This document shows, in pieces, positions 28,977 to 34,111 of a stretch of DNA of 51,757 nt; the stretch's first letter is position 1; each line of letters opens with the position of its first letter. This stretch comes from Paracoccaceae bacterium (GTDB lineage: Bacteria > Pseudomonadota > Alphaproteobacteria > Rhodobacterales > Rhodobacteraceae). Made by a program: the position numbers and the translations under genes. The notes beneath the pieces were generated by a model, which was given only the letters and a program-made list of their open reading frames with translations, searched no databases and was not told the DNA's origin. The DNA is taken from contig JAAEZB010000015.1 of the NCBI GenBank assembly GCA_018223085.1, forward strand, positions 1 to 51,757, written 5' to 3'.

Positions 28977-29051
28977 GCGGGCCTTGCACTGGGCGCGTGG
29001 AGAGGTCACAGGTGCGGACCAGAGGTCTGATTGAGGCCGAGAGGAAACACC

Positions 29052-29918
29052 ATGAGCGAAACTGCACCTGCCATTGCGATCCTGCCCTATGGAACAAAGC
29101 TCGGCCCCCGGCCTGGGCGTATGCCGCTTGATGCGCTCAATTGGCCTTTGGGTCAGCCAGGGCGTCTGCGCGGCAAGGCCCTGCGCGATATGGCGCCCGA
29201 GGATCATCTCGTCATTTACCCGACCGGCACCGCCCATATTCGCCCCGGCTTTGGCACGCGGGCGCGGGTGTCGATGATGCTGGTTGAGCCGGAAGCAGTT
29301 CAAGCGCGTCATTTCCATCGTCTGCGCTGGTCGCATCGGCGGTTCTATCGGGTACTCTCGGCGCAGGAGGATTTCCTCGCCCGAATTCCCAACGGCCTGT
29401 TCCTGCCTTTCGGGAGTACATGGGTGCCGGAGTGGCGCGATCTCGATACGGCTAAACGGGCTGATGCCTCTCTGATCGCTTCGTCCAAGCGTGACCTTGA
29501 GGGGCATAAACTACGCCACGAGATTGTCGAATGGGCGGCGTCTGAGGGGATCGAGATGGATGTGATGGGGCGCGGCTATAAACCGTTCGATCGCAAATCC
29601 GACGGTCTTGCGCCTTATCGGTTCTCGGTGGTGATCGAGAATGTACGCGAGCCGAACTATTTCACCGAAAAGCTTGTCGATGCGATTCTTTGCGAGACGG
29701 TGCCGATCTATTGGGGCTGCCCGAATATCGACCGCTTCTTGGACACGGGCGGTATGATCCTGTGTGAAACGGCTCAAGAGGTTCAGGACGCTATTCGCAG
29801 TGCGGATGCGGCTGAATATGAGCGCCGTCTCCCCGCACTGCGCGGGATCAAGGACAAGGCGGCCCATTGGGGTGATCTCGAAACCCGCGCAGCTCAGGCG
29901 GTTCTCGACGCGGATTAA
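29052..29918 (+). CDS. GT10 (alpha-1,3/4-fucosyltransferase-like) glycosyltransferase
   Basis: The 288-aa product has the GT10 C-terminal signature at about 189-225: YRFSVVIENVREPNYFTEK then LVDAILCETVPIYWGCPNI, matching the FucT donor-binding block. The N-terminal part (LIASSKRDLEGHKLRHEIVEW before it) is as in bacterial GT10. Transfer of fucose or a related deoxysugar onto a surface glycan or small acceptor is expected. No deoxysugar synthesis genes are nearby. It converges on a second glycosyltransferase. Confidence 0.75.
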   Translation: MSETAPAIAILPYGTKLGPRPGRMPLDALNWPLGQPGRLRGKALRDMAPEDHLVIYPTGTAHIRPGFGTRARVSMMLVEPEAVQARHFHRLRWSHRRFYRVLSAQEDFLARIPNGLFLPFGSTWVPEWRDLDTAKRADASLIASSKRDLEGHKLRHEIVEWAASEGIEMDVMGRGYKPFDRKSDGLAPYRFSVVIENVREPNYFTEKLVDAILCETVPIYWGCPNIDRFLDTGGMILCETAQEVQDAIRSADAAEYERRLPALRGIKDKAAHWGDLETRAAQAVLDAD

Positions 29919-29930
29919 GCGCGGCAATCC

Positions 29931-30767
29931 TTATCGCCAGATGCCATATTCCTTCTGGAAAAACGCACAGCAGGCATGATCGGCCCCGGCACGATCCGCG
30001 CCGTCGATGATGGCTTTGTAAAGCGGGGCGGAGTCGTGAGCACGGGACACATCCGGCCCGGACCGAAGGTTTTCCGGAACCCAAATGGGCGTTCCCGCCT
30101 TGGCAAGCATGCCCGAAAGCCAGATGTCATCCACCGCCCAATAGACCGGCGGGATGTCAAAGACATCGTCATCGAAAAACTCGGGGCGTAGTAGAACGCC
30201 ACCATAGCCTTGGAAAAAATCCCGATAGCCGCCGGATTTTATGTGGCGGCGGTTGGGTGGTCCGTCTCCGATCTTCTTAAGCAGCCCAAGCCGCCAGAGC
30301 AGGGTCTCCCACCGTTGTCTCAGGTCGGTGCGCTCATTGCGCTCAATGGCGCGGGGGAGGTGAGTGCGCTCCATGCTGCTTTCGATAATCCAGTCATTTA
30401 CCTCGAATGCGATGGGCGCGATGGCGGCATCGGGATGATCGCGCCGGGCATTTATCAGGCCTTGGGCCCAAGCGGGGGGGTACAGGCGATCATCATCGCA
30501 AAACAGGATTTCACAATCCTGCCCCCGAAACTCCCGCACCGCGTGTAAGACCTTGCTGGCTGGGCCTAAATCTTCGTCAACGCGCCGAATTTCTATCCCG
30601 TCGGGAACATCGGGCAGACGGCCATCGTAGTCAGGAAAGCGGCGATAGCTTTGCGGTATGTAGAGCAAGATATGATCGAAATGCGCGGTCTGGTTCAGCA
30701 GGCATTCCAACATGGGGCCAATCTGCGCAAAGCGTGGCGGGATCGTTGTCAGCGATATGATGCGCAT
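29931..30767 (-). CDS. GT-A-fold glycosyltransferase
   Basis: The 278-aa product starts MRIISLTTIPPRF and has an acidic EILFCDDDRLYPP with a DDD at 91-93, a metal and sugar-nucleotide motif of GT-A enzymes, then GYGGVLLRPEFFDDDVF and WAVDDIWLSGML, where the second acidic cluster would act as catalytic or acceptor site. Donor and acceptor are unknown. It faces the GT10 gene with 12 bp between stops; the two probably work on related glycans. Confidence 0.7.
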   Translation of the reverse strand: MRIISLTTIPPRFAQIGPMLECLLNQTAHFDHILLYIPQSYRRFPDYDGRLPDVPDGIEIRRVDEDLGPASKVLHAVREFRGQDCEILFCDDDRLYPPAWAQGLINARRDHPDAAIAPIAFEVNDWIIESSMERTHLPRAIERNERTDLRQRWETLLWRLGLLKKIGDGPPNRRHIKSGGYRDFFQGYGGVLLRPEFFDDDVFDIPPVYWAVDDIWLSGMLAKAGTPIWVPENLRSGPDVSRAHDSAPLYKAIIDGADRAGADHACCAFFQKEYGIWR

Positions 30768-30827
30768 TGGGCCGCTCCGAAGGCAAAAGCTCGGGCGACT
30801 ATGGCATCTAAATGGTGCTGTGGGGAA

Positions 30828-30858
30828 AAGAAAAACGCGCCAGAGTGGCGCGTTTTCC
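30828..30858 (-). terminator. Terminator of the sat/cysC gene
   Basis: AAAACGCGCC (30832-30841) and GGCGCGTTTT (30847-30856) form a perfect 10-bp stem. On the minus strand it is followed by TCTTTTCC, 24 bp past the stop. Confidence 0.8.
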
Positions 30859-30881
30859 AGTGTTTTAGATGAGACTGAGCC

Positions 30882-32957
30882 TTAGCCCGCGATGAGGCCG
30901 AGGCTTTCCAGTTTGAGGATCACCTGGTGGGCGCAGTTATCCACGTCCACATTTTCGGTCTCGACGCTCAGCTCGGGATTGACCGGCACGTCATAGGGGT
31001 CCGAGATACCAGTGAATTCCTTGATCTTGCCTTCGCGGGCGAGCTTGTAGAGCCCTTTGCGGTCGCGGCGTTCGCATTCCTCGATGGAGGTTGCAACGTG
31101 CACTTCGATGAAGGCACCGAATTGTTCGATGTCTTCGCGCACGGCGCGACGGGTCGTAGCATAGGGTGCGATCGGGGCGCAGATGGCGATACCGCCATTC
31201 TTGGTGATTTCCGATGCGACATAGCCGATGCGGCGAATGTTGAGATCGCGATGTTCCTTCGAGAAGCCAAGCTCGCTCGAAAGGTTCTTACGCACGATGT
31301 CCCCATCCAGAAGCGTCACCGGACGTCCGCCCATCTCCATGAGCTTGACCATGAGCGCGTTGGCGATGGTCGACTTGCCCGAGCCGGAGAAGCCGGTGAA
31401 GAACACGGTAAAGCCCTGTTTTGAACGCGGCGGCTTGGTCTTGCGCAGCTCTTTGACCACCTCGGGGAAGGAGAACCATTCCGGGATTTCGAGCCCTTCG
31501 GCCAGACGGCGGCGCAGTTCGGTGCCCGAGATGTTGAGGATGGTGACATCATCCTTGTCCTTGATCTCGTCCATGGGTTCGTATTGCGCGCGTTCCTGCA
31601 CCCATACCATGTGTTTGAAGTCGACCATTTCGATGCCGATTTCATCCTGATGCGCGCGGAACATTTCCTGTGCGTCATAGGGGCCGTAGAAATCTTCGCC
31701 TGCCGAGTTTTTGCCGGGGCCAGCGTGGTCGCGACCAACGATGAAGTGGGTGCAGCCGTGGTTCTTGCGGATCAGGCCATGCCAGACGGCTTCACGCGGG
31801 CCAGCCATGCGCATTGCAAGGTTGAGAAGCGACATGGTCGTGGTCGACTGCGGATACTTGTCGAGAACTGCCTCGTAGCAGCGCACGCGGGTGAAGTGAT
31901 CGACATCGCCCGGTTTGGTCATGCCGACCACCGGATGGATGAGAAGGTTGGCCTGCGCCTCTTTGGCGGCGCGGAAGGTAAGCTCCTGATGCGCGCGGTG
32001 CAGCGGGTTGCGGGTCTGGAAGGCCACGATTTTGCGCCAGCCGAGCTTGCGGAAATAGGCGCGCAGTTCGTTGGGCGTATCACGGCGGGCACGGAAGTCA
32101 TAATGCACCGGCTGCTGAATGCCGGTCACCGGGCCGCCGAGATAGACCTTGCCCGCATGGTTATGCAGGTAGTTGACGGCCGGGTGGGCATCATCATCGG
32201 CACCAAAGACTTTCTCGGCTTCTTTCGCTTTGTTCGGCACCCAGTTGTCGGTCACGGTCATGGTGGCGAGAATGACGCCTTCCTGATCGCGCAGGGCGAT
32301 GTCCTGACCTTCCTTGAGGGAGGCTGCGAACTCTTCGGAGACATCAAGGGTGATCGGCATCGGCCAGAGCGCCCCGTCCGCGAGGCGCATGTTCTCAACG
32401 ACGCCGTCGTAATCCTCTTCCGACAGGAAACCCTTGAGCGGGTTAAATCCTCCATTCATGAGCAGTTCCAGATCGCAGATCTGACGCGGATTCAGGTCCC
32501 AGCTGACGAGATCGGCTGCTTCGACCTTGAGCTTTTGGGCGCTCTCGTAGGAGACGTAGAGTTCGGGGATGGGCGCGAGGTTATTCTGCATAAGTTTGGT
32601 CCTATACTTAAAGGGAACGAGGCCGCTGTTTGTGCCGGTTAATTCGGCGTGAAGCGCATCATATTCGTCGAATTTGCGGGCGAGGAACCTGTCGGTCAGG
32701 CGGATTTTTTCCGCCGCCCCGCGCGAAGTCAGGGCATAGGCAAAGCGCTGGCGCTTGTCCGGTCCGGCTCGTTCGCTAATTTTGATCAGACCGATCTCGG
32801 CGGCTGCGCGCAATTGCGCGTTCAGGCGCCCCAAAGAGACGCCCAATGCCGTTGCCGTCGCCCGTTGCGACGCGTCCGGCGCCAGGTCAAGCTGGCGCAG
32901 GAGGCGGAAGAGCTGATCTTCCTCGTCCGGGTTCAGGATCGCTTTGGGCAAAGCCAT
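30882..32957 (-). CDS. MarR-type regulator domain fused in frame to bifunctional sulfate adenylyltransferase / adenylylsulfate kinase
   Basis: The open frame encodes 691 aa. Residues 1 to about 108 look like a MarR-family EPS-associated regulator: a wHTH with QRATATALGVSLGRLNAQL, then a wing. From Met123 the sequence is a standard 569-aa Sat-CysC: ATP sulfurylase with QTRNPLHRAH at 314-323 and ISGTELRR, and APS kinase with Walker A GFSGSGKST at 522-530 and DGD. The enzyme makes PAPS from sulfate. An internal ATG at 32591 with AGGA 8 nt upstream could give the enzyme alone. I therefore cannot say whether one or two proteins are made. A 14-bp palindrome lies 19 bp before the start. Confidence 0.85.
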   Translation of the reverse strand: MALPKAILNPDEEDQLFRLLRQLDLAPDASQRATATALGVSLGRLNAQLRAAAEIGLIKISERAGPDKRQRFAYALTSRGAAEKIRLTDRFLARKFDEYDALHAELTGTNSGLVPFKYRTKLMQNNLAPIPELYVSYESAQKLKVEAADLVSWDLNPRQICDLELLMNGGFNPLKGFLSEEDYDGVVENMRLADGALWPMPITLDVSEEFAASLKEGQDIALRDQEGVILATMTVTDNWVPNKAKEAEKVFGADDDAHPAVNYLHNHAGKVYLGGPVTGIQQPVHYDFRARRDTPNELRAYFRKLGWRKIVAFQTRNPLHRAHQELTFRAAKEAQANLLIHPVVGMTKPGDVDHFTRVRCYEAVLDKYPQSTTTMSLLNLAMRMAGPREAVWHGLIRKNHGCTHFIVGRDHAGPGKNSAGEDFYGPYDAQEMFRAHQDEIGIEMVDFKHMVWVQERAQYEPMDEIKDKDDVTILNISGTELRRRLAEGLEIPEWFSFPEVVKELRKTKPPRSKQGFTVFFTGFSGSGKSTIANALMVKLMEMGGRPVTLLDGDIVRKNLSSELGFSKEHRDLNIRRIGYVASEITKNGGIAICAPIAPYATTRRAVREDIEQFGAFIEVHVATSIEECERRDRKGLYKLAREGKIKEFTGISDPYDVPVNPELSVETENVDVDNCAHQVILKLESLGLIAG
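32591..32591 (-). promoter_or_regulatory. Possible internal translation start for separate Sat-CysC
   Basis: The ATG at 32591-32589 (minus strand) begins MQNNLAPIPELY, the usual Sat start, and follows TATAGGACCAAACTT with an AGGA core. It is in frame with the upstream regulator, so both a fused and a free enzyme are possible. Confidence 0.55.
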
Positions 32958-32976
32958 GATCTACGACTCAAAGTGT

Positions 32977-32990
32977 GTTCACGGGTGAAC
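32977..32990. promoter_or_regulatory. 14-bp palindrome upstream of the regulator-Sat-CysC gene
   Basis: GTTCAC-GG-GTGAAC, perfect 6-bp arms, centred 26 bp before the ATG. This is a plausible operator for the MarR-like domain encoded just downstream. Confidence 0.45.
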
Positions 32991-33132
32991 GCATTACATA
33001 TTTTGCAGATGCAGAAAAGAAAAAACCTTGGCTATTTTGTGGAAATGATCAGGGTGGCATCAATGCCACAGGCCTTTGCACGGTGGTGAAAGGGGGCAAT
33101 CGACGCTTCGCGCCTCTTTGAAGGGGGAGAGT

Positions 33133-33158
33133 GTGGCCGCTGAAATTTCGGCGGCCAC
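33133..33158 (-). terminator. Possible stem-loop after trxB
   Basis: GTGGCCGC (33133-33140) and GCGGCCAC (33151-33158) form a perfect stem 9 bp past the trxB stop, but no T run follows on the minus strand. Confidence 0.4.
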
Positions 33159-33166
33159 GCGCAGGA

Positions 33167-34111
33167 TCAATCGTCCTGTTCAGCCAGCCAGCGTTCCGCA
33201 TCCAGCGCTGCCATACAGCCCATGCCAGCCGAGGTCACGGCCTGACGATACTTGTGATCGGTAAGGTCGCCCGCGGCAAAGACGCCGGGCACCGAAGTTT
33301 CGGTGCCGCCCGGTTTGACCGCCACATAGCCGCCATTGTGTAGTTTAAGCGTGTCTTTCACCAATTCGCTGGCCGGGGCATGACCGATGGCCACAAACAC
33401 GCCCGCGCAGGGGATTTCGCTGATCGCGCCCGTCTCGACATGCTTGACCTTTACGCCGGTGACGCCCTTGGGATTGTCGTCACCGACAACCTCTTCCAGC
33501 ACGTGATGCCATAGCGGTTCGATCTTTGGATTTTTCATCAGTCGGTCAATGAGGATCTTCTCGGCGCGAAGCTCATCGCGGCGATGGATCAAGGTAACCT
33601 TGGAGGCAAAGTTGGTCAGGAACAACGCCTCTTCCACGGCGGTGTTGCCGCCACCGATGACAACAATTTCCTGCCCACGATAAAAGAATCCGTCACAGGT
33701 TGCGCAGGCCGAAACACCAAAGCCCTTGAAGGCCTCTTCCGACGGTAGGCCGAGCCACTTGGCGCGCGCCCCGGTGGCGAGGATCACGGCATCGGCGGTG
33801 ATGGTGTTGCCACTATCGCCTTTGGCGGTGAAGGGGCGTTTGGAGAGGTCGAGATCGGTGATGATATCCGACACGATCTGACAGCCCATGGCGCGGGCAT
33901 GCTCTTCCATCTTGACCATGAGTTCGGGGCCTTGCACCTCGGTAAATCCGGGATAGTTCTCGACCTCGGTCGTGGTGGTGAGCTGGCCGCCCGGTTCGAT
34001 CCCTTGTACGAGAATCGGCTCAAGCATGGCGCGGCTGGCATAGACACCGGCCGTATAGCCCGCCGGGCCCGAGCCAATGATGAGAACCTTGGTATGTGTC
34101 GTGTCGGCCAT
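33167..34111 (-). CDS. trxB: Thioredoxin reductase
   Basis: This flavoprotein transfers electrons from NADPH to thioredoxin. The 314-aa product has the FAD motif [17 protein letters not shown] near the N-terminus, the redox CATCDG disulfide, the NADPH motif [15 protein letters not shown], and the final FAD contact [17 protein letters not shown]. Length is normal. GGAAAGG precedes the start. It is divergent from the Lrp-type gene across 215 bp, an arrangement I also recall for enteric trxB/lrp. Confidence 0.96.

Follow-up and report, generated by a model that had tools for sequence, protein, structure and literature searches.

A conserved fusion of a MarR-type winged helix to ATP sulfurylase-APS kinase suggests an autoregulatory sulfate-activation gene in Rhodobacteraceae

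Results

The window, a 51,757-nt stretch of Paracoccaceae DNA, carries a MarR_EPS-Sat-CysC fusion gene (30882-32957, minus strand) of 691 amino acids, whose frame is open from an ATG at 32957 to a stop at 30882. A winged-helix DNA-binding domain, assigned from TIGR04176, AlphaFold2, Foldseek and dN/dS, occupies residues 12-107 (32637-32924) and closes with a long C-terminal helix at residues 78-107. On the same strand follow a linker (residues 109-122, 32592-32633), ATP sulfurylase (Sat; residues 123-508, 31434-32591; NF004040, TIGR00339, PF14306 and PF01747) and APS kinase (CysC; residues 509-691, 30885-31433; TIGR00455 and PF01583) with the P-loop GFSGSGKST. Residues 121-690 align with positions 4-571 of the 572 in the NF004040 Sat/APS kinase model (1052.8 bits, cut-off 669), and this predicted enzyme contains HRAH and GFSGSGKST, which we take to be Sat and APS kinase motifs. 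Against NCBIfam TIGR04176 MarR_EPS, residues 12-107 score 84.8 bits (E 3.8e-24) in a protein search and the domain scores 89 bits in a genome search, straddling the curated cut-off of 88, so automatic annotation may well give it no name. A preliminary description of this DNA had proposed that no stop separates the winged helix from Sat-CysC and that about 14 residues join them; the 691-codon frame bears this out, the linker is 14 residues long in 79 of 79 aligned fusions, and in each of the 91 genomes that hold a closely similar domain, residues 108 to 123 are read without a stop or frameshift.

The fusion gene is flanked by a thioredoxin-reductase-type gene and two glycosyltransferase-like genes, and the reductase is also found upstream in four of the five unfused loci read. 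Convergent GT10 fucosyltransferase-like and GT2-like genes lie downstream of the fusion at 29031-30767. A pattern scan places a possible terminator hairpin after the gene (30832-30856, unstranded), one of 3 such sites in the region against 3.1 expected.

Coding constraint covers the fusion, with dN/dS of 0.104 in the winged helix, 0.194 in the linker, 0.089 in Sat and 0.062 in CysC (600 pairs from 79 aligned genes), values for which synonymous sites are near saturation. The dN/dS and codon-bias sets include the window's gene and leave out the truncated L204 and L225. Judged from its sequence, the fusion is built for translation as one chain. An AlphaFold2 model of residues 1-124 (pLDDT 85) ends in a long helix, and a Foldseek search with this model returned MarR-family structures at the top and also Sso10a (best E 1.3e-4; query TM 0.45-0.60 among 27 matches at E ≤ 0.001); the predicted fold of the N-terminal domain is thus a MarR-like winged helix. 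The full-length model was too poor to use (pLDDT 66, pTM 0.44, with pLDDT below 50 at residues 116-133) and was set aside.

The fusion is conserved among relatives, as the search of related genomes proposed in the preliminary description now establishes. It is present in 25 of 25 genomes of the genus (the window's own and 24 others), with matches starting at residue 10 or before; the same search of 60 genomes finds the family members G026, G034 and G035 matching from residue 11 or before. In a sample of 395 family genomes, mostly one per genus, a hidden Markov model of the N-terminal part identifies the fusion in at least 92, comprising 91 genomes at E ≤ 1.5e-45 and G320. Frames in those 91 run to 601 codons or more except in G079, and the G320 frame has 713 codons, whereas the other listed family matches (E 1e-30 or weaker) lie in frames of 111-335 codons. 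The G079 and G398 frames run off contig ends, yet both are readable across the junction. All 80 named loci are fused in frame, a biased sample in that a scan of named genomes returned 330 relatives, from which these best 80 were chosen by similarity to the fused domain. Named and unnamed fused sets share species and jointly hold 155 distinct N-terminal sequences; counts across genomes and loci ignore shared ancestry throughout. Within a class sample of 289 genomes the domain occurs in 61, and frames longer than 350 amino acids are confined to the window's own genome and one other of its genus, G004.

Up to 303 of the 395 family genomes are without the fusion, so the circuit it may form is dispensable. 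A Sat-CysC tree of 56 rows intermixes 34 fused and 22 unfused sequences (17 changes against 17.6 in shuffles; L054 and L057 labelled fused by hand, their in-frame fusion being shown by BLAST-based placement), with good support for 5 of 53 inner branches. On so intermixed and poorly supported a tree, gain, loss and transfer are indistinguishable and no single history is shown. In the G320 gene (L105) the linker is longer and unlike that of the other fusions, the winged helix has diverged, and AGGA again precedes the Sat start; this fusion may be an independent event. In a plasmid search, the best ten matches (15 of 37 records listed), all of Rhodobacterales type, begin at residue 113 or later and are therefore unfused. 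Such unfused Sat-CysC genes are borne by plasmids of Sulfitobacter (L278, NZ_CP049347.1), where the gene adjoins polysaccharide genes, and Roseobacter (L279, NC_008387.1). Two records titled Nocardioides marinus DP1N28-1 (L196) and Maritalea mobilis DP3N28-3 (L198) contain the Rhodobacteraceae fusion gene, and these titles are perhaps wrong.

Within the fusion frame, a putative internal Shine-Dalgarno (SD) sequence AGGA (32603-32600, minus strand), whose AGG is codon 119, lies 8 nt ahead of the ATG of Met123 (32591-32589), the candidate start of a free Sat-CysC. Counting back from the Sat start, the fourth codon is AGG in 80 of 80 named and 102 of 104 other fused genes, and the remaining two have a shifted AGG. 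Elsewhere in the named fusion genes AGG makes up 26 of 4061 Arg codons (0.6%), and no codon of the gene is as biased as AGG119 (log-likelihood 290, against 106 for the next). AGGA precedes the Sat start by 5-14 nt in 79 of 80 genes, against 7 of 1124 other in-frame ATGs. The start itself is ATG in 67 of the 80 named fusions, GTG in 11 and TTG in 2; where Val stands there it is always GTG (11/11, P 4e-5) and where Leu stands there always TTG (2/2, P 6e-3), with probabilities taken from the genes' own codon use and shared ancestry ignored. Across the distinct sequences a legal start occupies the Sat junction in 154 of 155, and the one left over has an ATG one codon earlier. In 79 of 80 genes the internal start pairs more strongly with the anti-SD sequence than the full-length start does (medians -3.7 and -2.2), and the full-length starts have a three-base SD in 71 of 80 and a four-base SD in 2 of 80.

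This pattern places the internal SD and start codon under selection. It strongly supports the earlier suggestion that an internal ATG with AGGA could give two forms, and the stronger internal ribosome site implies that both are probably made, with the free enzyme in the larger amount. Ribosomes may be slowed by rare codons and SD-like sequences, and an unlikely alternative is that the full-length fusion is the sole product and AGG119 a slow codon or SD-like pause that aids folding at the domain boundary. The rarity of AGG in these genes and its location in the linker suit a pause. A pause would not, however, account for a legal start in all 80 named genes 9 nt past the AGG and in nearly all distinct sequences, for Val and Leu being encoded there solely by start codons, or for the scarcity of AGGA before other in-frame ATGs. 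RNA folding around the internal start is nothing unusual (z -0.17), and a term search of a Ruegeria pomeroyi proteogenomics study (PMC3305630) yielded nothing on this enzyme.

Directly before the start of the fusion gene stands a palindrome of consensus YGTTCA-N4-TGAACA, a candidate operator (32974-32993, unstranded) represented here by the 16-mer CGTTCACCCGTGAACA on the minus (coding) strand at 32991-32976. Between it and the gene, the upstream profile and anti-SD pairing define a short leader (32958-32973, minus strand) with a conserved CTTTGAGTC, a weak putative SD for the full-length start; a conserved CACTTTGAGTC stands after the palindrome in the named genes and the context profile. We scored the 600 nt preceding the Sat start for matches to the 12 defined positions of TGTTCA-N4-TGAACA. 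The 184 fused genes score 12 in 81, 11 in 98, 10 in 4 and 8 in 1, so that 183 have the site at 10 or better and 179 at 11 or better, and the sole miss, L041, ends at a contig edge. Among 39 unfused sat genes, which exclude L238 and L242 as not placeable by pattern, one scores 10, one 9 and 37 score 8 or less; none reaches 11. The operator-like site is thus tied to the fusion. GTTC and TGAAC are invariant in 149 distinct contexts preselected at 10 of 12 or better, and the site ends 15-19 nt ahead of the first in-frame start codon in 65 of 80 named genes. A sigma-70 scan of 30700-33180 gave no promoter match. In some genera (L051, L052, L053 and L056) a second operator-like palindrome, for example TTTGTTCTTGCGTGAACAAA, lies about 25-40 nt further upstream.

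Copies of the site elsewhere are few, yet above control (3, 1 and 4 against 1, 0 and 2 in exact or one-mismatch searches). The window's own genome has four sites at no more than one mismatch (control pattern, 1), of which one is the candidate operator and three lie inside long frames that by eye are galE-, glpD- and ABC-binding-protein-like; these were rejected as a regulon. The exact site occurs in 14 of 25 genus genomes, 13 times at the fusion gene and once elsewhere (reversed control, 0), this last copy, in G005, being rejected as a target because it falls within a long open frame. Across 32 other fused genera the exact site was found 15 times, of which 11 are at the fusion gene and 4 elsewhere (control, 2): two within frames some 400 codons long, one within a frame of 131 codons in G125 and one in no frame longer than 120 codons in G035. 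The G035 copy, an exact second palindrome near position 1004 of its contig (L271, G035:C16) in a fused genome, is a possible second target; that in G125 is likewise not clearly inside a gene. In these exact and near-exact searches the site is nearly private to the fusion gene, which points to autoregulation rather than a regulon.

These data bear on whether the N-terminal part itself acts at the site. Free Sat-CysC could be the sole important product and the N-terminal part a translated leader, with the palindrome bound by another regulator; the stronger internal ribosome site agrees with this, and like regulators exist, since the domain is matched in 45 of 395 family genomes that do not count as fused (among the matches listed). 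We nevertheless regard it as improbable: a mere leader would not be expected to hold a winged-helix dN/dS of 0.10, the window's own genome (a draft, 89% complete) shows no second domain match at E ≤ 0.001, and the site is absent before sat in G033, G118, G142 and the first copy of G438 (scores 7, 8, 8 and 7), which have a standalone paralog and no fusion. That the palindrome is instead an RNA hairpin in the leader, an attenuator or stability element, as its closeness to the start codon, its self-pairing and its listing as a hairpin by the pattern scan might suggest, is very improbable given an invariant GTTC/TGAAC core without compensatory changes in the 149 contexts, as protein recognition predicts, and given that the palindrome tracks the presence of the DNA-binding domain. 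Control of exopolysaccharide genes by the fused regulator, prompted by the MarR_EPS name, the two glycosyltransferase-like genes downstream in the window and the separate MarR_EPS gene of G438 among polysaccharide-type genes (named by eye) beside an unfused Sat-CysC, is equally hard to credit, as fused genomes have no recurrent second site.

Discussion

From the conservation and coding constraint of the fusion, the operator-like site tied to it and the selected internal start, we infer DNA binding, repression, two cellular products and control by a ligand. In the reading we favour, with a probability of roughly two in three, the gene regulates itself and gives two products, free Sat-CysC and a less abundant DNA-binding form acting on its own promoter. 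A single promoter would drive the gene, with the full-length protein starting from the weak ribosome site and the stronger internal site yielding free Sat-CysC as the working enzyme. The N-terminal winged helix would bind YGTTCA-N4-TGAACA at the promoter and start region of its own gene, and the long helix of the model, together with the MarR-family and Sso10a folds, suggests that the full-length form would do so as a dimer. Repression is the most likely outcome, proposed solely from the position of the site right before the start. An enzyme-bound ligand (APS, PAPS or ATP) would most likely alter the grip on the operator, and the amount of sulfate-activating enzyme would thereby be set by the enzyme itself.

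The preliminary description had gone further, proposing that sulfate flux or enzyme occupancy could control transcription directly. That idea narrows here to likely autoregulation, the only recurrent candidate operator being that of the fusion gene. We can suggest just tentatively that both products co-assemble through Sat-CysC and that promoter occupancy follows the subunit ratio and the bound APS or PAPS, which would make the complex at once flux sensor, repressor and regulated product, without a separate regulator.

In the window's own genome (draft, 89% complete) we find one Sat-CysC and one PF01507 protein, which resembles a reductase rather than CysD, so the fusion gene is probably this genome's way of activating sulfate. 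CC and CxxC cysteines are typical of APS reductases; the PF01507 gene (L277, contig C89) has both and lies beside a sulfite-reductase-like gene. By its sequence features it is perhaps an APS reductase, in which case sulfate reduction may not need PAPS here. The genome also has two Sulfotransfer_3 genes above cut-off, and with the APS-reductase-like PF01507 protein they indicate that APS may be a branch point. We propose that PAPS could serve as a signal of APS that reduction has not consumed.

PutA and BirA are enzymes that carry a DNA-binding domain and control the genes of their pathways; they differ from the present fusion in fold and pathway. With DNA-binding domain and predicted enzyme in one conserved chain, the locus belongs with such enzyme-regulator fusions. 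Its domain plan matches that of NadR in a different pathway, and by analogy it would be a variant of the class. According to one report, NadR of Enterobacterales joins a helix-turn-helix domain, NMN adenylyltransferase and ribosylnicotinamide kinase in one chain, and most NadR orthologs of other lineages are without the DNA-binding domain (PMC12421817). On that description the order of N-terminal DNA-binding domain, nucleotidyltransferase and kinase is the same in both. NadR differs in its pathway and enzyme families and acts as a repressor of genes other than its own, nadB, nadA and pncB among them, whereas the fusion has its only recurrent site at its own gene and, unlike NadR, a conserved internal start.

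The closest solved structures by sequence are the ATP sulfurylases 1i2d and 1m8p (680 and 677 bits), from the fungus Penicillium chrysogenum, and the Aquifex aeolicus Sat-APS kinase structures 2gks and 3cr8 match the Sat-CysC part as well (576 and 516 bits); all four leave the winged helix unmatched. In fungal ATP sulfurylase, as PMC4220642 describes, a C-terminal APS-kinase-like domain confers PAPS-mediated allosteric control; the APS kinase of the fusion differs in having its P-loop present. A literature search in which subscription journals were largely absent returned no description of a DNA-binding domain on ATP sulfurylase, or of any regulator acting on the gene in this bacterial group. 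Our analysis suggests that many marine roseobacter-type bacteria have a sulfate-activating enzyme with a DNA-binding domain, one gene giving both the enzyme and the form that controls it. If true, a single gene and its 16-bp site would be enough for testing the control of sulfate activation in a large marine bacterial group, and the conserved internal start would offer a clean case in which an enzyme and its regulator come from the same gene.

The regulator was earlier described as a separate short gene in known arrangements, and such genes do occur in the family sample. These standalone MarR_EPS (TIGR04176) proteins belong to the same domain family, but are encoded in separate short frames, spanning about 107-175 codons among the examples inspected. 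By eye and post hoc, four of five such paralogs show CGCTCA-N4-palindromes roughly 125 nt upstream of the gene itself (L258 CGCTCAGAGTTGAACG, L259 CGCTCAAAACCGAGCG, L260 CGCTCACATGTGAACG and L261 CGCTCAAAATTGATCG), which match the fusion consensus at 7-9 of 12 positions, and L257 has CGTTCAGTTATGAACT at -141 (10 of 12, by eye). Palindromes of the CGYTCA-N4 type at 125-141 nt upstream in L257-L261 are perhaps the operator of the family. In G438 (L270, G438:C5, 2497-5489), a separate 107-aa MarR_EPS-type gene precedes by 258 nt a second Sat-CysC copy, itself unfused, in a locus that by eye sits among polysaccharide-like genes. About 70 nt before the 107-aa gene lies CGTTCAACTGTGAACG (10 of 12), with a divergent NusG-like gene nearby. 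This arrangement could resemble a possible pre-fusion state.
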